From positions 186,001 through 250,000 of the forward strand of contig CAJTDX010000002.1 of the NCBI GenBank assembly GCA_910575155.1: a stretch of DNA of 64,000 nucleotides, written 5' to 3'. Positions 2,279-48,704 of this stretch are shown one piece after another. Within the stretch, counting starts at the first letter, position 1; each line of letters begins with the position of its first letter. This DNA is from Lachnospiraceae bacterium (GTDB taxonomy: Bacteria > Bacillota > Clostridia > Lachnospirales > Lachnospiraceae). The notes beneath the pieces are model-generated. The model did not search any database. It saw only the letters and a list, made by a program, of their open reading frames with translations, and was not told the DNA's origin. Made by a program: the position numbers and the translations under genes.

Positions 2279-3694
2279 ATGAATGCAGAAAGCAATGGCA
2301 GACCCTTTGGCATGAGAGATAAGCTGGGGTATATGTTTGGAGATTTTGGAAATGATTTTACGTTTATTTTTGCAAGTTCCTTTTTGATGGTATTCTACAC
2401 CAATGTTTTAGGAATTGATCCTAAAATGGTGGGAGTCCTGTTTCTGGTGGCGCGGGTGGTAGACGCTTTTACAGACATTGGCATGGGACGGATTGTAGAC
2501 CGCCTTCCGGCTTCCGGAGATGGAAAATTCCGTCCCTGGCTGAAACGGATTTGCGTCCCGGTAGCGTTTGTGAGTTTTCTGATGTACCAGTCGGTACTGG
2601 CGTCTGCGCCTATGAGCGTCAAAATTATTTATATGTTTATCACATACATTTTGTGGGGTTCCGTCTTATATACGGCGATTAATATTCCCTATGGATCTAT
2701 GGCGTCGGCGATCACAGACAATCCCAGGCAGCGCGCGGAACTGTCAACGTTCCGTTCTATGGGAGCAACCTTTGCCAGCGTCGTTATTATGATGGTGGCG
2801 CCTGTGGTAGTTTACTATAAAGATGAAAATGGCAATCAGTTGGTGAGTCCGCAGAATTTTACGGTAATTGCGGGAGTCTTTGCCGTGCTTGCCGTGATCT
2901 GTTATCTTCTGTGTTACCAGATGACCACGGAACGCGTAAAAATTGAAAAAAAAGACGGCGGCAAGATGCCCGGGATGGGCGAGACGGTTCACGCCCTGGC
3001 TTCTAACCGCGCGCTGCTTGCCATTATCGGAGCGGCAATTTTTCTGCTGCTGAGTTCTCTGATGGCGCAGGCCATGAATAATTATCTCTTCGCAGAATGG
3101 TTTAAAAATACGAAAGCCCTCTCAATTATGGGGTTTGTGGGAGTGCCGACTTCCCTGATACTGGCGGCGTTTACCGGAAAGATTACAGAGAAATTTGGTA
3201 AAAAGGAAGCCGGGGCGGTGGGAATGCTGTTTACCGGAATTGTTTTTGTCCTGTTGTTTTTATTTAAGGTCACAAATCCATGGATCTTTGTCCTGGTTAC
3301 TTTTTTTGGGAATTTTGGTATGTACTATTTTAACATGGTAGTGTGGGCATATATCACGGATGTGATCGACTATCAGGAGGTAAAGACCGGAAACCGGGAG
3401 GACGGCACAGTATACGGCGTGTATTCCTTTGCGCGTAAAATCGGGCAGGCACTGGCAGGAGGACTCAGCGGTTTTGCATTAGCGGCGATCGGTTATGTGT
3501 CGGAGCCGGGAGCGGTGCAGACCGACAGCGTGCGGGAAGGAATCTATAATATTGCCACAATTTTTCCGGGAATTTGTTATGTGCTTGTGGCGCTGATTCT
3601 TATATTTGCATATCCTCTGAGCAAACGCGTGGTGGAACAGAATGGAGAAATACTGACGCAGCGCCGTAAGGCAAAAGCAGAGATACAGCAGTGA
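2279..3694 (+). CDS. GPH-family (MelB-type) sugar:cation symporter, probable hexuronide importer
   Basis: The 471-aa protein has about 12 hydrophobic segments and the N-terminal hallmark of the glycoside-pentoside-hexuronide family: an FGDFGND loop, then [11 protein letters not shown] in helix II, whose paired aspartates belong to the family's cation site. It starts at ATG 2279 after GGAGGAAG. Its stop codon (3692-3694) nearly abuts the ribosome site of the mannonate dehydratase gene, so the two are cotranscribed. Because the three downstream enzymes degrade glucuronate, the likely cargo is free glucuronate or a beta-glucuronide; substrate is inferred from context, family from sequence. No beta-glucuronidase gene lies in the window. 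Confidence 0.87.
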
Positions 3695-3708
3695 TCAGGA
3701 GGCAGGAA

Positions 3709-4773
3709 ATGGAACGAATGAAATTATCTTTTCGCTGGTATGGCGAAGACGACAAGGTGAGTCTTGCAAAGATCCGTCAGATACCGGGGATGCATACCGT
3801 GGTGACGGCAGTTTATGATGTCCCTCCGGGAGAAGTCTGGCAGACGTCTTCGATTGATTCTTTAAAACGGCAGATTGAGGACGCAGGGCTGCATTTTGAA
3901 GTGGTGGAAAGCATTCCCGTACATGAAGACATTAAGCTGGGCAAGCCGGGAAGAGACCAATATATCGAAAATTATTGTGAAAATATCAGGAGAGTGGCTG
4001 CGGCCGGAGTGAAATGTATCTGTTATAACTTTATGCCGGTATTTGACTGGACGAGGACGCAGCTTGACCATGTGCTTGCGGATGGATCTACTGCTCTGGT
4101 GTATTATCAAAAACAGGTGGATCAGGTAAATCCTCTGCAGAGCGACAGCGACCTGACGCTTCCGGGCTGGGACGCAAGCTATACCAGAGAGGAATTGAAA
4201 CAGGTGGTTTCCCAATATCAGGCAATGACAGAGGAAGATCTGTGGGCGAATCTGAAGTATTTTCTGTCGCGCATCATTCCGGTGGCGGCTGAGTGCGGCG
4301 TCAATATGGCAATCCACGAGGACGATCCCTGCTGGAGTATTTTTGGCCTGCCGCGCATCATCACCTGTGAAGAAAATCTGGACCGTTTTTTAAAGCTGGT
4401 GGATGATCCGCATAACGGAATTACGCTTTGTACCGGATCTTTGGGATGCTCCTGCCGCAATAACGTAGTAAAAATGGCAGAAAAATATGCGGCTATGGGC
4501 AGGATTCATTTCGTCCATATGCGCAATGTCAAAGTGCTTGAGGATGGTTTTGAAGAGCGGGCGCATTTGTCAGAATGCGGTTCCCTGGATATGTATGCAA
4601 TTATGAAGTCTTTATACGATCATGGATTTTCCGGTTATATCCGCCCCGATCATGGCCGGATGATCTGGGGAGAGACTGGACGGCCGGGCTATGGGCTTTA
4701 TGACCGCGCTCTGGGCGCCACATATTTGAACGGATTGTGGGAAGCGATTGCGAAAGGAGAGAGAAGAAAATGA
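3709..4773 (+). CDS. uxuA: Mannonate dehydratase
   Basis: This 354-aa enzyme dehydrates D-mannonate to 2-keto-3-deoxygluconate in glucuronate catabolism. Family features visible are the N-terminal [16 protein letters not shown], the metal-site region IHEDDP, LCTGSLG, VHMRNV and the C-terminal [11 protein letters not shown]. The start is set at ATG 3709 because AGGAGG (3697-3702) sits six bases before it; a GTG at 3691 and an ATG at 3718 are in frame but badly spaced. Its TGA overlaps the ATG of the next gene (ATGA at 4770-4773), a sign of translational coupling. Confidence 0.95.
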
Positions 4774-5618
4774 GAGTACCATTTCAAATGGATTTAAGCG
4801 GTAAAGTGGCGGTGGTGACAGGAGCGGGAGGGATTTTGTGTTCTTCTATGGCTCATGCGCTTGCAGAATGCGGCGCCAGCGTGGCGCTTTTGGATCTGAA
4901 CCGGGAGACAGCCGAAGAACAGGCGGCAAACATAGCCGCAGAGGGAAAACAGGCCAGAGGCTACCAGGCAAACGCACTGGATAAAGACAGCCTCAGACAA
5001 GCGCATGAGAAAATTTTAGAAGAGCTTGGCCCCTGTGACATTCTAATTAATGGAGCCGGGGGGAATCATCCTCTGGCAACTACAGATAAAGAATATTTTG
5101 CCATGCAGGATTTAGAGGAACATGTCAAAACCTTTTTTGATTTGGAGCAGAGCGGGGTAGAATTTGTGTTCAATCTGAACTTTATCGGAACGCTGCTGCC
5201 AACCCAGATTTTTTCCAGAGACATGGTGGGACGGGAAGGATGCAGTATTTTAAATATTTCTTCTATGAACGCCTATACCCCTTTGACGAAAATTCCGGCG
5301 TACAGCGGGGCAAAAGCGGCGGTGAGCAATTTTACGCAATGGCTGGCCGTTCATTTTGCCAGAGAGGGAATACGGGTCAACGCCCTGGCGCCGGGCTTTT
5401 TTGTCACCAAACAGAATGAACGGTTACTGTATCATGAAGATGGAACGCCCACAGAGCGCACCGGCAAAATACTGGCGGCTACGCCAATGCAGCGTTTTGG
5501 CAGAACAGAGGAGCTGCTTGGCAGCGTGCTGTTTTTGCTGAATGAGGAAGCGGCGGGATTTATCACAGGCGTGGTGCTGCCAATTGACGGCGGATTTTCT
5601 GCATATTCCGGCGTCTGA
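4770..5618 (+). CDS. SDR-family D-mannonate oxidoreductase (fructuronate reductase)
   Basis: The 282-aa short-chain dehydrogenase has the N-terminal NAD(P) motif TGAGGIL (about residues 15-21), NGAGG, the catalytic serine in NISSMN, and YSGAK as the Tyr-x3-Lys pair, then a PGF segment and a C-terminal PIDGG. It lies between uxuA and uxaC, so the expected reaction is D-fructuronate to D-mannonate. This matches the Bacillus YjmF type rather than the unrelated long-chain UxuB of enteric bacteria. Start ATG 4770 overlaps the uxuA stop; AAAGGAGAG precedes it. Specificity is inferred from position. Confidence 0.88.
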
Positions 5619-5672
5619 CGGTATGCGCGGTATAACTGCGGTTGTTGGTGAGAGAAAGGAATCGTTGTGCGT

Positions 5673-7094
5673 ATGAAGAAAACGACATTTATGGATGAAA
5701 ATTTTCTGCTGGAAACGGAGACGGCCAGAGAACTCTATCATGCCTGCGCGGAAAAGCTGCCGATTTTGGATTATCACTGCCATCTTGATCCCAGGGAAAT
5801 TGCAGAAGACAAAAGATATGAGAATCTGGCGGGGGTCTGGCTGGCAGGCGATCATTATAAATGGAGGCAGATGCGCAGTAACGGTGCAGAAGAAGCTTAT
5901 ATTACCGGAGATGCTCCGGATTTTGAGAAGTTCTGCCAGTGGGCGCAGACATTGGAAAAGGCAGTCGGCAATCCGTTGTATCATTGGAGCCATTTGGAAC
6001 TGCGGCGCTATTTTGGATACGAAGGGACGCTGGGAGCGGATACTGCTCAGGAGGTATGGGAGCTGTGCCGCAAGCGGCTGCTGGAGGAAGATATGAGCGT
6101 TCGCGGGATTCTGAGGGCTTCTCATGTAACCCTGGTGTGTACCACCGATGATCCGGGAGATGATCTGCGCTGGCACCGCCAGATTGCCAGTGAGGAACAT
6201 ATGGAAATCCAGGTATTGCCAACCTTTCGAGCGGACCGCGCCTGCTCCATCGAACAGGCAGGTTTCGCAGAGTATATGCAGGAGCTTGGAAGGGCGGCGT
6301 CCGTGGAAATAAAAGATTTTGGCAGTTGGAAAAAGGCGCTGTCAGAGCGCATGGATTATTTTGAGGAATCAGGCTGCCGCGTCAGCGACCACGGGCTGCT
6401 GTATCTGCCCTGGAAGCAGGCAAGTGAGAGTGAAATTGAGAAGATATTTGCAGACAGGCTCAGCGGGCGGGAGATTTCCCGGGAACAGGAATTGAAGTTT
6501 CAGACGGCGGCAATGCTGTGGCTGGGAGAAGAATACCAGAAACGGGGCTGGGTCATGCAGCTTCATTTTGGCGTTACCAGAAATAATAATGCCAGAATGT
6601 TTCAATTATTGGGAGCTGATACCGGGTTTGACGGCATTTATAATCAGGCGCCGCTCACAGAATTAAGCGCTTATCTGGACGCGCTGTGCCAGAAAAACGC
6701 CTTGCCGAAAACGATTCTTTACAGTCTCAATCCGGCGGATAACGCGCCTTTGGGAGCGCTGCTTGGATGTTTTCAGGAAGCGGGGACGTCAGGAAAAATA
6801 CAACAGGGGAGCGCCTGGTGGTTTAACGACCATAAAGCAGGGATGGAAGAACAGCTTACCTCCCTTGCCAATCTGGGTCTTCTGGGGAATTTTATTGGAA
6901 TGCTGACCGATTCCAGAAGTTTTTTATCCTATACACGCCATGAATATTTCCGGCGGATTCTCTGCAATCTCATAGGCGGCTGGGTGGAGAACGGGGAATA
7001 TCCCTATCACAGAGAAAAGCTGTTTTCACTGATAAAAAATATCTGCTATAACAATGCCGTGGAATATTTTGGATTTGATCTGGAAAAAGTTTAG
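5673..7094 (+). CDS. uxaC: Glucuronate isomerase
   Basis: The 473-aa protein belongs to the UxaC uronate isomerases and converts D-glucuronate to D-fructuronate (galacturonate to tagaturonate is the usual side activity). Visible are the MDENFLL start region, the HxH metal motif in DYHCHLDP, the HFGVTRNNN segment, and a C-terminal region with HEYFRRIL. Length fits the family (about 470). ATG 5673 is chosen; an in-frame GTG at 5667 is closer to the AGAAAGGA site and may be the true start. It is the last gene of the hexuronate operon; I see no hairpin after it. KdgK and KdgA, needed for the next steps, are not in the window. Confidence 0.95.
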   Translation: MKKTTFMDENFLLETETARELYHACAEKLPILDYHCHLDPREIAEDKRYENLAGVWLAGDHYKWRQMRSNGAEEAYITGDAPDFEKFCQWAQTLEKAVGNPLYHWSHLELRRYFGYEGTLGADTAQEVWELCRKRLLEEDMSVRGILRASHVTLVCTTDDPGDDLRWHRQIASEEHMEIQVLPTFRADRACSIEQAGFAEYMQELGRAASVEIKDFGSWKKALSERMDYFEESGCRVSDHGLLYLPWKQASESEIEKIFADRLSGREISREQELKFQTAAMLWLGEEYQKRGWVMQLHFGVTRNNNARMFQLLGADTGFDGIYNQAPLTELSAYLDALCQKNALPKTILYSLNPADNAPLGALLGCFQEAGTSGKIQQGSAWWFNDHKAGMEEQLTSLANLGLLGNFIGMLTDSRSFLSYTRHEYFRRILCNLIGGWVENGEYPYHREKLFSLIKNICYNNAVEYFGFDLEKV

Positions 7095-37272: not shown

Positions 37273-39042
37273 ATGGAAAAAATATTAGATCTTATCGGCA
37301 GCAAAGTAGTGAAGGCATTTCAGGCAAATGGCTATGATGAAAAATATGGCAAAGCGACGCTTTCAAACCGTCCGGATTTGTGCGAATACCAGTGCAATGG
37401 AGCCATGGCGGCGGCAAAAGAATATAAATGCGCGCCGTTTATGATATCGGACAAGGTCGCGGACAGCTTAAAGGGGAATCCCATGTTTGAGTCTGTGGAT
37501 TCTGTAAAGCCGGGATTTTTGAATTTGAAGCTCAGTGCGGAATATTTGGCGCAATATCTGCGCAGAATGGCAGAAGATCCCACCCGCCTGGGATGTGATA
37601 AATGTGAGAATCCCAAAACGATTATGATTGATTACGGCGGGCCCAATGTGGCAAAACCGCTGCATGTGGGACATCTGCGCTCCGCGATTATAGGAGAGAG
37701 TGTGAAACGGATTGGAACGTTTATGGGACATACGATGATAGGCGACGTGCATCTGGGAGACTGGGGCCTGCAGATGGGACTGATTATTACAGAATTAAAA
37801 GAACGCAAGCCTGATTTGGTCTATTTTGACGAGACATATTCCGGGGAATATCCGCAGGAGGCGCCCTTTACCATTGGAGAGCTGGAAGAAATCTATCCTG
37901 CGGCGAGCGCAAAATCCAAAGAAGACGACGCCTACAAAGAGGCGGCAATGCAGGCGACGTTTGAATTGCAGCACGGAAAGGGAGGCTATCAGGCGCTGCT
38001 GAAACATATTTTAGATGTCTCAGTCAGTGATTTAAAACGCAATTATGAGAATCTTGGGGTTTCCTTCGAATTGTGGAAAGGAGAATCGGACGCCCAGCCT
38101 TATATTCCTGATATGGTAGAAAAAATGAAAAAAGACGGTTATGCCTATATCAGTGAAGGTGCGCTGGTGGTAGATGTAAAGGAGGACACAGACACGAAAG
38201 AAATTCCTCCCTGTATGATTTTAAAATCAGACGGAGCGTCCCTTTATAATACCACGGATCTGGCAACCATTGTCTGGCGTATGAAAGATTATCAGCCGGA
38301 TGAGATTATATATGTGGTGGATAAGCGGCAGGAACTGTATTTTACCCAGGTGTTCCGCTGCGCCAGGAAAACAGGGCTGGTGAAGCCGGAAACAGAACTG
38401 AAATTTCTGGGATTCGGCACCATGAACGGGAAAGACGGCAAGCCGTTTAAAACCAGAGAGGGCGGAGTAATGCGACTGGAATACCTTGTGTCAAGCATCA
38501 ATGAAGAGATGTATCAAAAAATTGCGGACAACCATACGGTAGAGGAGGAAGAAGGACGGAAAACGGCCAAGGTGGTAGCTCTTTCCGCCATCAAGTATGG
38601 AGATTTATCCAACCAGGCTTCTAAGGATTATATCTTCGATGTGGAACGCTTTACTTCCTTTGAGGGGAATACCGGGCCATATATTCTCTACACCATTGTA
38701 AGGATTAAGTCTATTTTGAAGAAATATCGGGCGCAGAAAGAACTTCCGCAGAATGCGAAGATTTTAGCGGCGCATTCTCACAGTGAAAAAGCGCTGATGT
38801 TAGAGCTGTGCAAATTTAACGGGATGATGGAAGCCGCGTTCCAGGAGACTGCGCCCCATAAAGTATGCGCTTATATTTATGACCTTGCAAATGCGTTCAA
38901 TCATTTTTATCATGAGACGAAGATTATGGCGGAGCAGGATGAAATGGTACAGGCAGGCTATATCTGTCTGCTGGACCTGACCAGGCAGGCGCTGGAACTT
39001 TGCATAGAAACGCTTGGATTTGAGGCGCCGGAGCGGATGTAA
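37273..39042 (+). CDS. argS: Arginine--tRNA ligase
   Basis: The 589-aa class I synthetase has the N-terminal Add-1 domain, the HIGH-type motif in GGPNVAKPLHVGHLRSAIIGE (His-Val-Gly-His near residue 137), and a C-terminal DALR anticodon-binding domain (about residues 465-589). The KMSKS site is replaced by FGTMNGKDGKPFKTREGG, as in many ArgRS, so it is not an anomaly. Length is normal. Confidence 0.96.
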   Translation: MEKILDLIGSKVVKAFQANGYDEKYGKATLSNRPDLCEYQCNGAMAAAKEYKCAPFMISDKVADSLKGNPMFESVDSVKPGFLNLKLSAEYLAQYLRRMAEDPTRLGCDKCENPKTIMIDYGGPNVAKPLHVGHLRSAIIGESVKRIGTFMGHTMIGDVHLGDWGLQMGLIITELKERKPDLVYFDETYSGEYPQEAPFTIGELEEIYPAASAKSKEDDAYKEAAMQATFELQHGKGGYQALLKHILDVSVSDLKRNYENLGVSFELWKGESDAQPYIPDMVEKMKKDGYAYISEGALVVDVKEDTDTKEIPPCMILKSDGASLYNTTDLATIVWRMKDYQPDEIIYVVDKRQELYFTQVFRCARKTGLVKPETELKFLGFGTMNGKDGKPFKTREGGVMRLEYLVSSINEEMYQKIADNHTVEEEEGRKTAKVVALSAIKYGDLSNQASKDYIFDVERFTSFEGNTGPYILYTIVRIKSILKKYRAQKELPQNAKILAAHSHSEKALMLELCKFNGMMEAAFQETAPHKVCAYIYDLANAFNHFYHETKIMAEQDEMVQAGYICLLDLTRQALELCIETLGFEAPERM

Positions 39043-39068
39043 GCGCCGGGCATTGTACAGATTCCGTA

Positions 39069-39114
39069 CAGGAATCCGCTTTGCATTCATTTATCTGCAA
39101 GGTCAGGATTCCTG
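39069..39114. other. Two-tier hairpin between convergent argS and tautomerase genes
   Basis: CAGGAATCC (39069-39077) pairs with GGATTCCTG (39106-39114), and CTTTGCA (39079-39085) with TGCAAGG (39096-39102) inside it. There is no T-run on the plus strand. It may still terminate or stabilise both convergent transcripts. Confidence 0.5.
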
Positions 39115-39129
39115 CCGGACTTCCATATG

Positions 39130-39474
39130 CTAAAAATTACTTCCATTCCATCCCCAGTTTGAAACGGCTTCATATTTTACGTAAATATGATCCTGGGGAA
39201 TGTTTAATACCTCATGGAACATAGAGCAGATTTCTGAAGTCAAAGCCGAAAAGGCGCTTTTATTTTCTGTGCCGAACACTTTGACTTCCACAAATGCGGT
39301 TGGCGTGCTGTCGTCCCCGCGGAAATAAAGATGATATTCCGGTTCAAAACCGGTCATCAGCCAGCTTTCACTTTTACCGGGAATCAGGGAGATTGCCTGA
39401 CCCAGTCGTGAAACCAGTGTTTTTTCCTGTTCCTTTGATAAAGAAACGCTTACTTTTGAATTGATAAATGGCAT
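39130..39474 (-). CDS. MIF/phenylpyruvate tautomerase-family protein
   Basis: The 114-aa protein starts MPFINSK; after methionine removal Pro1 would be the catalytic base of the tautomerase fold. The rest fits the MIF family: VEVKVFG, then a C-terminal half with IPQDHIYVKYEAVSNWGWNG. Bacterial members tautomerise phenylpyruvate-like keto acids; the biological substrate is unknown. AGGAGGTAATC precedes the ATG. Single leftward gene. Confidence 0.88.
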   Translation of the reverse strand: MPFINSKVSVSLSKEQEKTLVSRLGQAISLIPGKSESWLMTGFEPEYHLYFRGDDSTPTAFVEVKVFGTENKSAFSALTSEICSMFHEVLNIPQDHIYVKYEAVSNWGWNGSNF

Positions 39475-39583
39475 AATGATTACCTCCTGAATGAATTTTC
39501 TTCATTATACGTTTTTCTGCACGCTGCTGTCAATTCTTTTACACACAGGTATATTTTGCGCAAAACCGGTAATCATCCCGGAT

Positions 39584-39598
39584 GCAACAGATTGTTGC
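39584..39598 (+). promoter_or_regulatory. Inverted repeat upstream of the XRE regulator
   Basis: GCAACA (39584-39589) GAT TGTTGC (39593-39598) is a perfect 6-bp dyad about 60 bases before the XRE gene. It may be its autoregulatory operator. Confidence 0.4.
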
Positions 39599-39660
39599 TG
39601 GTTATTTTGAAGAAAAAATGCTAAGGTGAAAGCACAACAAAAGGGAAAGGAATGTGGTTT

Positions 39661-40620
39661 ATGGAAAAGAGCGTAGGAGAGAGATTAAAGGAATGCCGCA
39701 CAGAGCGCCAGTTAAGCCAGCAGGATCTTGCCGAAAGGCTTCATGTGACAAGACAGGCGATTTCCAACTGGGAGAGGGACAAGACGCTGCCGGATGTGTA
39801 TATGTTAAAGGAGATCGCTTTAGCGTTTGATATGACCCTGGATGAGTACATGGAACATACCAGACAGGCAGAGGTGAAGATGCCTAAGACGCCGGGCAGA
39901 CTTACAGCGGCGGCTTTGGCGCTGATACCTCTGTATTTGACTGCAGGGGGATTTACCGGCCATTTAGCGGCAGAACTTGTCATAGGGATGGTGATTATCG
40001 CTGTTTTTTGTCAGATGTTTTTGCATCTGTATTTATCGGGTTCGGTAAAAAGCGGTAATTTTTCCATGCTGGCAGGATATGACGGCAAAGTAGAGTACCG
40101 GGTGGAAGAAGTGAAGAAAGTATTGATACAGATGGATATGCATAATTCCTGTTCTGCATTTGGAGCGGTACTGCTGCTGGGAATTTGCGGATTTATGGGG
40201 GGAAAGCAGGGAGAACTTGTCAGTATCTTTGTGATCGTATCGTATTGTATTGATCTGGCGCTGGCAATCTGTGTTCTCAATTACCGCAGCATAGAGCGGG
40301 TTATGGTAAAAGAAAAAGACCAGAAAACGGCAAAAGCAGGTTATATTTCAGTCTTCTGGTTTATGGCCTGTCTGTTTGCCTTTATAGGGGCGGTTTTTGC
40401 GAAGATGGAGCTTGCGGGCATTGAGAATAATTCAAAAGAATCCGCCGGAATTTTAGGCTGGATCATTCTTTTTCTGGCGGTTGTAGTTATAGAGTTGTTT
40501 TATGAGCAGCACAGGGCCAAAAAAGAGGTGGAGGCGGAGCGCAGGTACAGGCCTGGAAAAGCTTTTTTGCTGAGCAATCTTCTGGTGGCAGGGATTTTTC
40601 TGGGGATGCTGTTTTGTTAA
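39661..40620 (+). CDS. XRE-family transcriptional regulator with membrane domain
   Basis: The 319-aa protein opens with a Cro/CI-type helix-turn-helix (about residues 6-58: LSQQDLAERLHVTRQAISNWERDKTLPD), followed by a linker and about seven hydrophobic segments (residues 82-319). It is thus a membrane-tethered DNA-binding protein, a layout common in Clostridia and often placed near the transporter it controls, although no transporter is adjacent here. ATG 39661 has better spacing from AAAGGA than ATG 39652. Signal and target genes are unknown. Confidence 0.85.
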   Translation: MEKSVGERLKECRTERQLSQQDLAERLHVTRQAISNWERDKTLPDVYMLKEIALAFDMTLDEYMEHTRQAEVKMPKTPGRLTAAALALIPLYLTAGGFTGHLAAELVIGMVIIAVFCQMFLHLYLSGSVKSGNFSMLAGYDGKVEYRVEEVKKVLIQMDMHNSCSAFGAVLLLGICGFMGGKQGELVSIFVIVSYCIDLALAICVLNYRSIERVMVKEKDQKTAKAGYISVFWFMACLFAFIGAVFAKMELAGIENNSKESAGILGWIILFLAVVVIELFYEQHRAKKEVEAERRYRPGKAFLLSNLLVAGIFLGMLFC

Positions 40621-40691
40621 AGGATCATACATATTTTTTGTAAAGCAGAGAATACTATCAGGGATAAATATTATATGGAAAGGAGATTCCT

Positions 40692-40877
40692 ATGAATCCA
40701 TTATCAGAAAAAGAATTATCTGCTTTGAATGATCTGCTGACCGGAGAGGAACTTTTGATTAAGAAATTCCAGGTGCTGGCAGATAACTGCACCGATACGG
40801 AAATTAAATCAAAGTTTACTGAGATTTCGAATGAGCACAAAGAGCATTTCCGTTCTCTGTATTCCCAGTTGAGCTAA
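40692..40877 (+). CDS. Small CotF-like spore coat-associated protein
   Basis: The 61-aa helical protein (MNPLSEKELSALNDLLTGEE) resembles the short ferritin-like/CotF partner proteins often encoded before a cotF-type gene. Its conserved surface, LLIKKFQVLADNCTD through EHKEHF, looks like half of a four-helix bundle. AAAGGAG precedes the ATG and 26 bp separate it from the next gene, so the two probably work as a pair. The assignment rests mainly on this pairing. Confidence 0.65.
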   Translation: MNPLSEKELSALNDLLTGEELLIKKFQVLADNCTDTEIKSKFTEISNEHKEHFRSLYSQLS

Positions 40878-40903
40878 TAATCGCTAAAATCAGGAGGTAA
40901 ATC

Positions 40904-41179
40904 ATGCAGCAGTCATTTTATTCAGAAAAAGAAATGTTAGCGGATGCGCTGACCGCAGAAAAAACAGCCACCACCCTTTATAATACGTTTTCCAATGAAT
41001 GCGTTCACAACAACGTCAGAAACGCTATTCTGGACTGTCTGGAAAAAGAACATAATATCCAGAATGAGGTGTTTAATATGATGCACGACAGAGGTTATTA
41101 TCCTACGCCTTCTGCGGAGACTCAAAAGATCGACGAGGCGAAGCAGAAATTCGGGCAGTGTATGCAGAATTTTTCATAA
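40904..41179 (+). CDS. CotF-family spore coat protein
   Basis: The 91-aa protein matches the Coat F pattern: KEMLADALTAEKTATTLYNTFSNEC, then LDCLEKEHNIQNEVFNMMHDRGYYPT near the C-terminus. These proteins coat spores or their close relatives in Clostridia and are made in the mother cell. AGGAGGTAAATC precedes the ATG. A terminator follows directly. Confidence 0.83.
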   Translation: MQQSFYSEKEMLADALTAEKTATTLYNTFSNECVHNNVRNAILDCLEKEHNIQNEVFNMMHDRGYYPTPSAETQKIDEAKQKFGQCMQNFS

Positions 41180-41187
41180 GAGAGCTG

Positions 41188-41224
41188 ATTCACCTGCTGT
41201 ATTTTGCAGCAGGTGAATTTATTG
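41188..41224 (+). terminator. Terminator of the CotF pair
   Basis: ATTCACCTGCTG (41188-41199) / CAGCAGGTGAAT (41207-41218), then TTATT. Confidence 0.88.
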
Positions 41225-41314
41225 TGCGTATACCGCCTTTTGCTGCCGGCATACCGCGAAACGGACTGGGGGCGGTAATTTGTAAACGGACCGAAACCGT
41301 CTGAAAAACTTATA

Positions 41315-41342
41315 TTGAATAATCAGTAATTCTTGCTATAAT
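41315..41342 (+). promoter_or_regulatory. SigA promoter of the receiver-alarmone synthetase gene
   Basis: TTGAAT (41315-41320), 16-base spacer, TATAAT (41337-41342) with an extended TGC before the -10. Confidence 0.78.
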
Positions 41343-41382
41343 AAATATAGAAGCCATTTATGGAATAAATTTGGAGGCTGAT

Positions 41383-42453
41383 ATGCAAAAGATACTGGTA
41401 GTAGACGATGTGGAATTGAATCGTGAATTACTGCGCTACATATTGGAGGAAGAGTATACGATTGAGACGGCGGCGGATGGGAAAGAGGCCATACAAAAGC
41501 TGCAGGAATCCAGAGAGGAGACCGGGGCGGTTCTTCTGGATTTGCAGATGCCGGATATGGATGGATTTGCCGTTATTTCAGAGCTGAAAGAGAGAGGATG
41601 GATGCAAAGCTTTCCCGTGCTGGTGATCAGCGGGGAATATACGATAGATGTGGAGAACCGCTGTCTGGAGCTGGGCGTTTCTGACTTTATCCATAAGCCT
41701 TTTGGCACTTCTGTTGTCAGAAACAGAATCAGGAACGCTATGGAGCTGTTTTCTACCAGGAAAAAGTTAGAGCGGAAAGTGGAAGAACAGGCGGAGGCGC
41801 TGAGAGAACAAAATGAAATTATCAGACGGCATACGGAAAAGCTGCGTCAGAAAAAGTCGTTTAACAGACTGATGATGGAATACCGGTCCGTCATTATGGA
41901 AGTGGAAACCAGGCTTAAGGTGCTGAATGAAGAATTTTCCCAGGAATATAACCGGAATCCCTTTGAGGCGATCGAGAGCCGGTTGAAAACACCGGAAAGT
42001 ATTTTTGAAAAACTGGACCGCAAGGGTTATCCCGTCACTCTGGAGAGTATTCGGGAAAACCTTACAGACGTGGCGGGACTGCGGGTGATCTGTTCTTTTC
42101 CGGATGATATATACCGTCTGGCGGAACTTTTGACGAAGCAGGACGATATCATTATAATACGGGAGAAAGATTATATTAAAAATCCCAAGCCGAATGGCTA
42201 CCGCAGTCTCCACTTTATATTGAGCGTGCCTATTTTTTTGTCCAATGAGAAAAAGTATATGAACGCCGAGGTGCAGTTCCGCACCATTGCCATGGATTTC
42301 TGGGCAAGTCTGGAACATAAATTAAAATATAAGAAAAATGTCGGCAGCGCGGATGAAATCGTGGCGATGCTGAAAGACTGTGCGGATTCCATAGAAGCGC
42401 TGGACTATCAGATGCAGGAGATACGAAATAAGATTGACCGTTCCAGGCAGTAG
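41383..42453 (+). CDS. Response-regulator receiver fused to a (p)ppGpp synthetase
   Basis: The 356-aa protein has an N-terminal CheY-like receiver (residues 1-118) with the acidic pair Asp8-Asp9, the phosphoacceptor Asp53 in LLDLQMPD, and Lys105 in HKPF. A coiled coil (about 122-170) leads to a RelA/SpoT synthetase domain (about 175-350). The latter shows [17 protein letters not shown] (Arg200, Lys202), [20 protein letters not shown] (269-277), the catalytic-region EVQFRT (296-301) and [11 protein letters not shown]. No HD hydrolase, TGS or ACT domain is present, so the output half is a small alarmone synthetase. It would make pppGpp or ppGpp under phosphorylation control; that link is inferred. 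ATG 41383 follows GGAGG. No histidine kinase is adjacent. Confidence 0.92.
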
Positions 42454-42461
42454 GGTTCGGC

Positions 42462-42490
42462 TTGACAGCCGTGAGGGCATATATTATAGT
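42462..42490 (+). promoter_or_regulatory. SigA promoter of trpS
   Basis: TTGACA (42462-42467), 17-base spacer, TATAGT (42485-42490), 40 bases before the ATG. No T-box fits in this leader. Confidence 0.87.
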
Positions 42491-42530
42491 GTATAGAGAA
42501 AAACTTGAGAAAAACAGGCGAGGGCAGATT

Positions 42531-43616
42531 ATGAGTAAAATTATTTTAACAGGCGACAGACCTACCGGAAAGCTTCATGTGGGGCATTATGCGGGTTCTC
42601 TCAGAAGAAGAGTGGAACTGCAAAATTCCGGGGAATATGATAAGATCTTTATTATGATTGCGGATGCGCAGGCATTGACGGATAATGCGGACAATCCGGA
42701 GAAAGTAAGGCAGAATGTGGTGGAAGTGGCGCTGGATTATATGGCATGCGGTCTGGATCCGGCAAAGTCAACGCTGTTTATCCAGTCGCAGATCCCGCAG
42801 CTTTGCGAGCTGTCCTTTTATTATATGAATCTGGTGACGGTATCCCGTTTACAGCGTAATCCTACCGTAAAAGCGGAGATTCAGATGCGCAATTTTGAGG
42901 CGAGCATTCCGGTGGGATTTTTTACATATCCGATCAGCCAGGCTGCGGATATTACGGCGTTCCAGGCGACTGCGGTTCCGGTAGGAGAGGATCAGATGCC
43001 AATGCTGGAGCAGACCAGAGAGATTGTCCATAAATTTAATTCCGTGTATGGCGAGACGCTGACAGAGCCGCAGATTTTACTTCCGGATAACCAGGCGTGT
43101 ATGCGGCTGCCTGGCATTGACGGCAAGGCGAAAATGAGTAAGTCTCTCGGCAACTGTATCTATCTCTCAGAAGAAGCGGACGAGATTAAGAAGAAAGTCA
43201 TGAGTATGTTTACGGATCCCAACCATCTGCGCGTGGAAGATCCGGGTTCTCTGGAAGGAAATACGGTATTTACGTATCTGGACGCCTTCTGCCGGGAGGA
43301 ACATTTTGGCAGATATCTGCCTGATTATGCCAATCTGGAGGAACTGAAGGCTCATTATAAACGCGGGGGCCTGGGAGACGTGAAGGTGAAGAAATTCCTG
43401 AACAATGTAATGCAGGAAGAATTAGAACCCATCCGCAGCCGCAGAAAGGAACTGCAAAAAGACATTCCTTATATTTATGAAGTGCTGAAAAAGGGAAGCG
43501 AAGAGGCGGAGCGTGCGGCGGCAGATACGCTTGAAAGAGTGCGCAATGCCATGAAAATCAATTATTTTGCAGATCAGGAGCTGATTCAGCAGCAGTCAGA
43601 AAAATTCAAAGGATAA
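42531..43616 (+). CDS. trpS: Tryptophan--tRNA ligase
   Basis: The 361-aa class I synthetase has the HIGH-type motif in [17 protein letters not shown] (about residues 8-24) and the KMSKS motif in [11 protein letters not shown] (about 200-210). The [20 protein letters not shown] and [21 protein letters not shown] segments are typical. Length is about 20-30 aa over the Bacillus enzyme, fitting the TrpRS II subgroup. The ATG is preceded by only a weak GAGGGC ribosome site. Confidence 0.96.
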
Positions 43617-43747
43617 AAGAAGCAGAACGAAGCTAAGACTTTGGTTGAACTGCAGTGTGGGGTACAAGTGCGGCAGCGCATCATGGGTGTTCCTTTATAG
43701 GAAATGCACTTTCATATTTTAGTGTGACAATGTATTCCCTATAGGGT

Positions 43748-43786
43748 AAAAAAGTCCGGAAGAGCGCGGCTCCTCCGGGCTTTTTG
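43748..43786. terminator. Bidirectional terminator between trpS and the LUD gene
   Basis: AAAAAG-T-CCGGA (43749-43760) pairs with TCCGG-G-CTTTTT (43774-43785), including one wobble; A- and T-runs flank it, serving both strands. The 130 bp before it hold the palindrome CCCTATAGGG (about 43738-43747) and a related TTCCTTTATAGGAA, but no gene. Confidence 0.85.
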
Positions 43787-43813
43787 CAGTAAGCGGGCGT
43801 TTCTCTGCGCGGC

Positions 43814-44452
43814 TTAATATCCCAGTTCTTCGCCAATGAGAATGACTTTGATGCGGTTTGCCTGGTTACTGCGGCGTGTGATCACGGTCTGGGCACAGAT
43901 ACATTCCGGGCTTTGGCAGTCGCTGCAGACGCCGGAAGCCGCGCAGGGGGTATTCCGCCTGAGCCGTATGGCGTTGATGGGGGAGGCTGTGTTTTTTACC
44001 CGCGTCAGCGCTGCTTCCACAGAGGGCGTAACTTTGTTCATACCGGCCAGAATTATAACGTTGGAAGGGCCGTAAATCAATGCGGCAAGGCGGTTTCCGG
44101 TACCGTCGGTATTCACCAGTTCTCCGGTAACGGAAATGGCGTTGCTGCTCATAAAGTAATAATCGGCGTTTAATGACTTGTGATAGATTTCAGACACTTC
44201 TTCTTCTGACCTGGCTTTGCTGCGGTCTAAAAGCGTGAGGTCTTCACGGCTTTGCAGAGCTTTTATCATGCCGGATTCTGTCAATGTCACAGAACCGCCA
44301 AAAGATACGGTGCTGCCGGATGCAACCATAGACAGGGCAAGTTCAGCCGCGTCTTTGGCAGTAGGGCAGTAATGGGCTTCTATCTGGCGCAGCTGCAGGT
44401 TTTTCATGGCAGTGGCAGCCAGTTTTTCATAATAGGTTTTGACTGGAGTCAT
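43814..44452 (-). CDS. LUD-domain (LutC/YkgG-like) protein, orphan
   Basis: The 212-aa protein belongs to the LUD superfamily of lactate-utilisation proteins. It shows SGSTVSFGGSVTLTESGM, then LNADYYFMSSNAISVTGELVNTDGTGNR and IYGPSNVIILAGMNKV, and ends in a Cys-rich stretch, CAASGVCSDCQSPECIC (about residues 175-191), suited to an Fe-S cluster. The lutA and lutB partners are not adjacent. ATG 44452 is chosen (AAAGGGG eight bases before it) rather than an upstream in-frame start at 44485. The exact reaction is unknown. Confidence 0.83.
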   Translation of the reverse strand: MTPVKTYYEKLAATAMKNLQLRQIEAHYCPTAKDAAELALSMVASGSTVSFGGSVTLTESGMIKALQSREDLTLLDRSKARSEEEVSEIYHKSLNADYYFMSSNAISVTGELVNTDGTGNRLAALIYGPSNVIILAGMNKVTPSVEAALTRVKNTASPINAIRLRRNTPCAASGVCSDCQSPECICAQTVITRRSNQANRIKVILIGEELGY

Positions 44453-44655
44453 ATGTAATTCCCCTTTCTTATACGTTTTCTGCATTCAGGGTAACACAGA
44501 TGAAGAAAAGAATCCAGAGTTTTCCATGGAATTTGAATTACTTTTTCAAATGTGCTATAATTCTGGGAGCGTGTTTGCGCGATGTGCGCGGCAGACAGAC
44601 GGCAGGCGTGGTTTTTGCGGCGCGTTTTAAAAACAGTGGACAGATGGAGGTAGGA

Positions 44656-47495: not shown

Positions 47496-48704
47496 ATGAC
47501 AAAAATAGATATTATTTCTGGTTTTTTAGGAGCTGGAAAGACAACTTTTATCAAAAAGATGCTGGAGGACGTCTTTAAGGGTGAGAAGATTGTGCTGATT
47601 GAGAATGAGTTTGGGGAGATTGGCATTGACGGCGGTTTTTTGAAAGATTCCGGCATTGAGATCAGCGAACTGAATTCCGGTTGTATCTGCTGTTCTCTGG
47701 TGGGAGATTTTGGCAAGAACCTGCGGGAAGTTATGGAGCGTTTCCATCCCGACCGCATTCTGATTGAGCCGTCCGGTGTGGGAAAATTGTCTGACGTGAT
47801 GAAGTCCGTACAGGAGGTGGAAGCGGAAAATGAGGTGAAACTCAACGGGCGTCTTACCGTGGTCAATACGGCAAAAGCCAAAAAGCAAATGAAAGCATTT
47901 GGAGAATTTTTTAATAATCAGATTATGTATGCCACGGTTGTAGTGTTAAGCCGGACCCAGAACGTGAAGCCGGAACAGACAGAAGAGGTGGTAAAGGCAA
48001 TCCGGGAGAAAAATCCACAGGCCGCCATCATCACCACGCCCTGGGATGAGATCGACGGAACGCAGATTTATAAACTGATGGAACACCAGAAATCATTGGA
48101 ACAAGAGCTTATGGAAGCGCATACATGCGATCATGAGCATGGACACGGCGATCATCATGACCACAACCATGAGCATGGATCAGACTGCGGCTGTCATGAG
48201 CATGACCATCATGACCACAACCATGAGCATGGATCAGACTGCGGCTGTCATGAGCATGACCATCATGACCATCATCATGAGCATGGATCAGACTGCGGCT
48301 GTCATGAGCATGACTGCGATCATCATAACCATCATGAGCATGGATCGGACTGCGGCTGTCATGAGCATGACCATCATGACCATCATCATGAGCATGGACA
48401 CGGCGATCATCATGACCACCATCATGCAGACGAAGTATTTACAAGCTGGGGGAAGGAGACGCCTCACGTATTTTCCAGGGATACCATTGAACACGCAATG
48501 AAAGTGTTCTGTGAGACAGAGGAGTATGGAACGGTTCTGCGTGCAAAAGGAATGGTTCCGGGCCAGGACGGAACATGGATTTATTTTGATATGGTAGATG
48601 GAGAATATGAGCTCAGGAGCGGGGAAGCAGATTATACCGGAAGGCTCTGCGTGATTGGTACGAATCTTGAGGAAGAAAAACTGGAAGCATTATTTGGCAT
48701 ATAA
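47496..48704 (+). CDS. CobW/COG0523-family GTPase with His/Cys repeat array
   Basis: The 402-aa metal-chaperone-type GTPase has the P-loop GFLGAGKTT (residues 9-17), ENEFGEIGID, the metal-binding GCICCSL (CxCC, about 67-71) and a CobW C-terminal domain (about 325-400). Between the domains lies a roughly 100-residue block of four near-identical SDCGCHEHD units, flanked by HGHGDHHDH units, able to bind many Zn, Ni or Co ions. The usual NKxD base-recognition motif reads SRTQ, so nucleotide preference may differ. AGGAGG precedes the ATG. It is followed 28 bp later by a second CobW-like gene. Confidence 0.92.
   Translation: MTKIDIISGFLGAGKTTFIKKMLEDVFKGEKIVLIENEFGEIGIDGGFLKDSGIEISELNSGCICCSLVGDFGKNLREVMERFHPDRILIEPSGVGKLSDVMKSVQEVEAENEVKLNGRLTVVNTAKAKKQMKAFGEFFNNQIMYATVVVLSRTQNVKPEQTEEVVKAIREKNPQAAIITTPWDEIDGTQIYKLMEHQKSLEQELMEAHTCDHEHGHGDHHDHNHEHGSDCGCHEHDHHDHNHEHGSDCGCHEHDHHDHHHEHGSDCGCHEHDCDHHNHHEHGSDCGCHEHDHHDHHHEHGHGDHHDHHHADEVFTSWGKETPHVFSRDTIEHAMKVFCETEEYGTVLRAKGMVPGQDGTWIYFDMVDGEYELRSGEADYTGRLCVIGTNLEEEKLEALFGI
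48132..48425 (+). repeat. In-frame 54-bp tandem repeat coding for His/Cys-rich units
   Basis: Full units begin at 48168, 48222, 48276 (57 bp long) and 48333, each starting CATGAGCATGGATC, flanked by partial units at 48132 and 48387. Units are nearly identical at the DNA level, which points to recent expansion and copy-number instability. Confidence 0.95.

Follow-up and report, generated by a model that had tools for sequence, protein, structure and literature searches.

A CheY-like receiver fused to a RelP-type small alarmone synthetase in Lachnospiraceae: a candidate response regulator with (p)ppGpp synthesis as its output

In a stretch of 64,000 nucleotides from a Lachnospiraceae bacterium (GenBank assembly GCA_910575155.1, contig CAJTDX010000002.1, positions 186,001 to 250,000; hereafter the window), a gene at 41383..42453 on the forward strand encodes a 356-residue protein composed of a CheY-like receiver (REC) domain, a coil-like helix and a complete RelP-type small alarmone synthetase (SAS), in this order and without a hydrolase. 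Based on sequence comparisons and a predicted structure, we propose, with a probability of roughly 0.6, that this fusion is a response regulator with an enzymatic output, in which phosphorylation of Asp53 would switch the synthesis of the alarmones ppGpp and pppGpp, together (p)ppGpp. The initial annotation of the window had placed alarmone synthesis directly under a phosphorelay; both halves of the protein are intact and kept in many genomes under purifying selection, which agrees with that claim, and we regard the control by phosphorylation itself as probable. Synthesis of ppGpp is usually tied to starved ribosomes, in the case of Rel, or to the expression of small synthetases. If our proposal is true, a signal read by a histidine kinase could control the amount of alarmone with no need for new transcription, and small alarmone synthetases would become part of two-component signalling in a bacterial family that is common in guts. 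Since the protein is small, its phosphosite clear and a candidate for its kinase available, the proposal can be put to a direct test.

A receiver, a coil-like helix and a synthetase in one protein

The reading frame starts with an ATG at 41383, preceded by a GGAGG ribosome binding site read from the sequence (41373..41377; this and all further window features lie on the forward strand unless stated otherwise), and its stop codon ends at 42453. Pfam assigned residues 4–116 (41392..41730) to Response_reg (E 2e-25, exceeding the curated cut-off) and residues 199–319 to RelA_SpoT (PF04607; E 8e-35, 120 bits against a cut-off of 27). These were the only families matched at E 0.001, with no HD hydrolase, TGS or ACT domain among them. 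The phosphorylation pocket of the receiver is complete, comprising Asp8, Asp9, Asp53 (41539-41541), Ser83 and Lys105, so that the receiver fold, the acidic pocket, the phosphoacceptor aspartate, the Ser/Thr and the lysine of a response regulator are all present. The initial annotation had named these residues apart from Ser83, and had likewise described an intact RelA/SpoT synthetase lacking a hydrolase, as borne out by the synthetase motifs and by the Pfam result.

Receiver and synthetase are connected by a coil-like signalling helix (residues 117–157, 41731..41853), which was delimited from a model helix, a heptad pattern and homology to the linkers of REC-HD-GYP regulators. In the predicted structure, α5 of the receiver is prolonged into a single helix covering residues 109–155, and the first helix of the synthetase (residues 158–189) comes next; the RelP-type domain as a whole spans residues 158–356 (41854..42450). 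The coiled-coil link proposed earlier is compatible with this single model helix and with the heptad pattern, which was read by eye from the conservation described below.

The fusion and its phosphorylation pocket are conserved within Lachnospiraceae

A contig scan of a genome collection returned 294 relatives, of which the best 80 were retained (counts given as x/80 loci refer to these; L and G numbers denote our loci and genomes). Every one of the 80 contained the full-length fusion, at 65–91% identity, and their labels were mostly Lachnospiraceae or its genera, including the named species Petralouisia muris (L046); unverified record labels pointed in some cases to further clostridial families, among them Peptostreptococcaceae (L062), Clostridiaceae (L072) and Oscillospiraceae (L091), and in one case to Bacteroidales (L050). 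Among 61 genomes near that of the window, the full-length fusion was found in 18, namely the window's own, 16/28 of the same genus and one of another genus, while a family sample yielded 13/397 genomes from 12 genera, the window's own included. A phylum sample of 398 genomes, searched at E 1e-50 with the complete fusion sequence, gave none besides the window's own; such a search could miss fusions with unrelated halves. The full-length single frame, its presence at 80 loci and the 13/397 family genomes rule out a chance overlap, a pseudogene or an assembly join. A 574-aa frame reported in genome G333 could not be recognised as a fusion when frames of at least 300 aa were checked. As to mobile spread, viral contigs held no match to six peptide patterns, and of the records with matches, 449 from plasmids and 51 from phages, none held a place covering 80% of the query.

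Conservation was counted over 81 aligned fusion copies and over a second set of 28 copies from a protein search (L006-L023, L116-L125; window copy included), which has many genomes in common with the contig-scan set. Asp9, Asp53, Ile82, Asp101 and Pro106 were invariant in the larger set (81/81), whose residue 8 was Asp (78/81) or Glu (3/81) and whose residue 83 was Ser (73/81) or Thr (8/81). The 28-copy set showed invariant Asp8, Asp9 and Asp53, with Thr once at residue 83 and Arg once in place of Lys105. The search pattern that holds Asp53 was found in only 2/110 full-length copies, as many as there are copies of the window's own (L002, L006), so that this pattern did not shape the copy set. 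Within the synthetase, the motifs around residues 229–236, KDYI, GYRSLH, ExQFRT and EHK were invariant or nearly so among the 81 copies, all of which carried Pro268 and Tyr273; 15 of 16 tabulated synthetase positions were invariant in 28/28 copies, Arg213 being Lys in one. The linker retained hydrophobic residues at L129 (80/81), V133 (69/81), L140 (78/81), I147 (81/81) and L154 (80/81), and polar ones at Q136 (79/81), Q143 (74/81) and Q150 (80/81; His in the window). This heptad pattern is consistent with a coiled coil, and its hydrophobic (133/140/147/154) and polar (136/143/150) positions might suit a switchable helix.

The ratio of nonsynonymous to synonymous change (dN/dS) between the window and L036 was 0.07 for the receiver, 0.11 for the coil and 0.026 for the synthetase. 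Medians over close pairs were 0.095 for the receiver (52 pairs) and 0.031 for the synthetase (48 computable pairs), with synonymous change near saturation in some pairs other than window versus L036. These values indicate that purifying selection is acting on both receiver and synthetase, and the residue counts indicate that the phosphorylation pocket is not eroding, although conservation is looser in the receiver than in the synthetase.

The synthetase half is of the RelP type

Residues 160–352 align to Staphylococcus aureus RelP (6ewz) with E 6e-54 and one single-residue gap, and identity to RelP/SAS2 enzymes (S. aureus 6ewz/6fgj, Bacillus subtilis YwaC 6fgk) amounts to 41–43% over the entire length of the synthetase domain. 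The G-Y-R-S-L-H loop and the E-x-Q and E-H-K motifs are all present. By alignment, the G-loop comprises residues 264–277 (42172..42213), with Pro268, which aligns with Pro146 of S. aureus RelP, Tyr273, Arg274 and His277; Glu296 of the E-x-Q motif (42268..42270), presumably a catalytic residue, was found in 81/81 and 28/28 copies. The rigid-loop proline and the catalytic motifs are common to RelP/SAS2 and the fusion, whereas RelP is a single domain and the fusion, with a receiver and a coil added in front, is a dual-domain SAS.

According to the available part of PMC5794853, the G-loop proline of RelP accompanies an ordered loop and an active enzyme that is unresponsive to pppGpp, and the N-terminal helix (α1) lines the tetramer interface. 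The pppGpp-site residues of RelQ named there, Phe42, Thr44 and Asn148, are substituted in the fusion by Ala196, Glu198 and Asp305, positions that were matched by eye on the alignment; across copies, residue 196 was Ser in 70/81, residue 198 Lys in 77/81 and residue 305 Asp in 81/81. The equivalog NF053588 (GTP diphosphokinase YjbM, RelQ) scored 172.4 bits, under its curated cut-off of 320. Four further PF04607 matches occur in the window genome, one in a frame of 781 aa, the size of a long Rel, and the other three in small frames.

Origin of the fusion

When 120 synthetase domains (57 from fusions and 63 others) were placed in a tree, the fusions made up one side of a branch with an SH-aLRT support of 98, and a smaller tree with 42 fusions, in which the window's was the sole copy of its genus, gave the same result (99). 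This phylogeny, suggested as a check in the initial annotation, was inferred by a quick method with midpoint rooting, is unsure in some long branches, and omitted one match for shortness and none for stops; the grouping fits a single origin of the receiver-synthetase fusion without proving it. Close relatives of the synthetase without a receiver, 53–63% identical, are common in the family, and such a copy also occurs in 5/13 fusion-bearing family genomes (G163, G239, G384, G389, G422; E 1e-60).

On the side of the receiver, the two best receivers of the window genome among the matches listed belong to REC-HD-GYP regulators (L171 3805-4905, L172 2070-3158), which are 41–42% identical to the fusion over receiver and linker (155–167 residues). 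These regulators share with the fusion a homologous receiver and linker, with the receiver ahead of an enzyme domain; their output is HD_5 (HD-GYP type), whereas the fusion lacks an HD match and has a ppGpp synthetase. By family, we take the HD_5 output to be a phosphodiesterase of cyclic di-GMP (c-di-GMP). Receiver and coil are most similar to those of the REC-HD-GYP regulators encoded in the window genome, which suggests that the output behind a like receiver and coil was swapped from one second messenger to another, and the simplest history would be that a REC-coil module of the REC-HD-GYP type was joined once to a RelP-type synthetase.

Candidate kinases

The kinase of the fusion is probably encoded at a distance from it. 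At locus L037, from a single metagenome-assembled genome (MAG), the TGA of a hybrid histidine kinase gene (PAS-PAS-HisKA-HATPase-REC-REC, 1047 aa) is followed after 7 bases by the ATG of a fusion that is 87% identical to the window's. An ortholog of this kinase is present in the window genome (G000:C5:20335-23472, 82% identical over its full length), away from the fusion, and we consider it the best named candidate there. Five Hpt matches above the cut-off also occur in the window genome. Synteny with that G000:C5 contig is seen for the L037 kinase and for the second gene upstream of it, and the L037 DNA directly past the kinase part matches the window starting at 41374. In the window, as in L036 and L038-L041, the gene ahead of the fusion is a CotF-like one, and the L037 arrangement therefore looks derived; an assembly error at the junction is unlikely given its operon-like exactness. 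The input, left blank in the initial annotation, is narrowed by this junction and by the ortholog in the window genome. Three fusion-bearing genomes that are 98–99% complete (G017, G024, G028) gave no full-length match to the L037-type kinase, which is hence no universal partner.

When the closest gene on either side of the fusion was considered (100 aa or longer, no more than 1.5 kb away), HATPase_c neighbours were found in 3/73 cases upstream (L037, L048, L098) and 2/77 downstream (L057 and one further match). The L098 frame just upstream of the fusion (3207-5906, forward strand, 899 aa) combines a hybrid histidine kinase with a DegV-family domain. In 8/80 loci, which matching contig coordinates assign to same-genus genomes (L042, L045, L046, L047, L049, L061, L069, L080), the fusion is directly followed by genes for a regulator and a kinase-like protein; the L042 regulator is of the OmpR type (Pfam), and the kinase-like genes of L042 and L045 were read by eye, the kinase motif script having flagged neither. 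Further on, these eight loci feature a cluster with weak similarity to ABC transporters (7/8) and a cluster of proteins of ~680 aa (6/8). The combination of regulator, kinase-like gene and transporter presumably resembles the BceRS-BceAB antimicrobial-peptide modules.

Proposed switching mechanism and alternative explanations

In the proposed mechanism, a histidine kinase would phosphorylate Asp53, either directly or via a phosphorelay, and thereby pair or rearrange the receivers. The coil-like helix would pass this change on to the opening helix of the RelP-type domain, the putative counterpart of the helix lining the RelP tetramer interface, and so switch the production of ppGpp/pppGpp from ATP and GDP/GTP. 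Since the G-loop proline is present, the RelQ allosteric residues are absent and the coil feeds the N-terminal helix, we infer that the receiver stands in for allosteric control, most likely restraining the enzyme until phosphorylated. The expected sign, off when unphosphorylated and on when phosphorylated, follows from the consideration that a rigid, always-active RelP-type G-loop would need a brake. Phosphorylation, oligomeric state, activity and sign are predictions from sequence in this scheme. Helices linking an upstream receiver to a catalytic domain behind it, for example a histidine kinase, HD-GYP domain or diguanylate cyclase, are described in the available part of the signalling-helix paper PMC1592074, the main text of which contains neither 'SpoT' nor 'ppGpp'.

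Several observations weigh against this proposal. The predicted structure (pLDDT 83.8, pTM 0.59) makes the mutual placing of the domains unreliable and does not fix their arrangement. Residue 105 is Lys in 76/81 copies, including that of the window, and Arg in 5/81. The receiver evolves about three times faster than the synthetase, and across all pairs the distances of the two halves are correlated with an r of only 0.42, so that part of the conservation could be upkeep of the fold. No kinase gene adjoins the fusion in the window, as the initial annotation had correctly stated, its neighbours being the CotF-like gene and trpS, and the L037 junction is known from one MAG, the match in G019 being 100% and not independent. 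The fusion and the L037-type kinase are not associated across 29 genus genomes (both in 13, fusion alone in 4, kinase alone in 8, neither in 4; Fisher p 0.68), several of which are incomplete (one with the fusion alone is only 84% complete, and the kinase is split in G008 and partial in G010). Likewise, the 5/150 HATPase_c neighbours do not clearly exceed background (Poisson p 0.08–0.14, with the number of kinases set to 60 or 71 and that of genes assumed to be 3,900).

The receiver could be purely structural, serving assembly or placement in the cell, with the enzyme controlled by transcription like an ordinary RelP. This would be in line with a promoter-like site of the gene's own that is kept in close relatives, with a RelP-type G-loop that predicts an always-active enzyme, and with the finding of no constant kinase partner; yet a structural receiver should lose pocket residues in some lineages, while Asp9, Asp53 and Ser/Thr83 are present in 81/81 copies, and we judge this explanation unlikely. 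A working receiver might instead obtain its phosphate chiefly from acetyl phosphate, or from several kinases at once, and so report on energy or acetate status and not on a single sensor. Among neighbour frames of at least 70 aa, no cluster recurs in more than 11/80 loci, and the 71 HATPase_c matches of the window genome, not all of them kinases, offer many candidates, as such a receiver would suggest; the operon-like L037 junction with one hybrid kinase and the regulator and kinase-like genes directly behind the fusion in 8/80 loci speak against it and leave it quite improbable. Lastly, the synthetase half could belong to the toxin-like or defence synthetases (toxSAS) and yield other products or modify tRNA. 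The PADLOC model PDC-S33, a defence candidate of unspecified meaning, matches residues 136–308 at 1e-23; a constant antitoxin neighbour of the toxSAS type was not found, the largest cluster of the same neighbour frames reaching 11/80 loci, and we attach very little weight to this explanation.

Switching of the synthetase through Asp53 is the reading that we favour. A wider account built upon it is tentative and falls somewhat short of even odds: Lachnospiraceae would once have swapped an HD-GYP domain for a RelP-type synthetase, and hybrid kinases would set ppGpp without transcription, ribosome or tRNA sensing, kinase and synthetase having come together in an operon in at least one species.

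Comparison with known systems

In REC-GGDEF proteins such as PleD, a receiver controls the synthesis of a nucleotide second messenger, as we propose for the fusion, and PleD chains were among the structure matches of the fusion receiver; the product of PleD is c-di-GMP, and its catalytic domain is unrelated to that of the fusion. RelZ (MS_RHII-RSD) of Mycobacterium smegmatis is, like the fusion, a dual-domain SAS with its second domain in front, which is an RNase HII domain in RelZ and a receiver in the fusion (PMC7591505, available part). Two other SAS combinations were each seen in one genome: in G034, an SAS 62% identical to the window's is followed by a GDSL/SGNH-type hydrolase domain (L024 1149-2600, forward strand, 483 aa), and in G234 a glycosyltransferase family 8 domain stands ahead of an SAS (L175 1311-2963, forward strand, 550 aa).

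Small synthetases usually act on ppGpp synthesis through their expression (PMC5794853, available part). In the open-licence literature searched, as far as the text of each paper was available (PMC3153485, PMC4558063, PMC8622095, PMC7591505, PMC1592074, PMC5794853, PMC6416229, PMC6667448, PMC12421884, PMC10732058), we found no description of a protein combining a receiver with an alarmone synthetase. As far as this literature goes, response regulators would gain with the fusion an output, and small alarmone synthetases an input, that had not been described before. The architecture may already be recorded in domain databases.

Genomic context of the fusion gene

Upstream of the fusion, the window contains a CotF-like gene and a DUF2383-like gene (under the Pfam cut-off), while trpS lies downstream (42531..43616; TIGR00233 above cut-off). 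Between the CotF-like gene and the fusion we identified a terminator-like hairpin (41187..41219; fold -22.7 kcal/mol, z -5.8, equalled by 0/200 shuffles), which was not listed by a terminator scan that requires a T run. It is followed by a promoter-like site, TTGAAT-16-TATAAT with TG ahead of the second hexamer (41315..41342, 10/12 consensus), which is weak on its own, given that two other sites, one of them intragenic (42130-42158), score 11/12; the stretch is kept in L036 and L038 while its flanks diverge. A promoter-like site for trpS, TTGACA-17-TATAGT, is found at 42462..42490 (11/12 consensus), with the region of its second hexamer kept in L036-L038 and its first hexamer not kept in L037. 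No riboswitch or other RNA element reached Rfam gathering scores at 39000-44600.

Membership of the fusion in a trpS operon was rejected, because trpS adjoins it in only L036-L038 among the 80 loci, lying ~2 kb off in L039-L041 and L043, and because trpS has a promoter-like site of its own. A role as a sporulation gene was also discarded. The host had been taken for a spore former, and spo0A in its genome fits; the suggested cross-talk with sporulation kinases found no positive support, as the promoter-like site is of the vegetative type, a strong hairpin stands towards the CotF-like gene, and that gene lies 5' of the fusion only in the window and in 5/80 loci (L036, L038-L041).

Elsewhere in the window, positions 39130-39474 on the reverse strand encode a small protein of the MIF (macrophage migration inhibitory factor) family, in a Lachnospiraceae-type genome. 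At 47496-48704 on the forward strand, a CobW-type GTPase contains long internal, near-identical repeats rich in His, Asp and Cys (HDHHDHNHEHGSDCGCHE), which are likely metal-binding.
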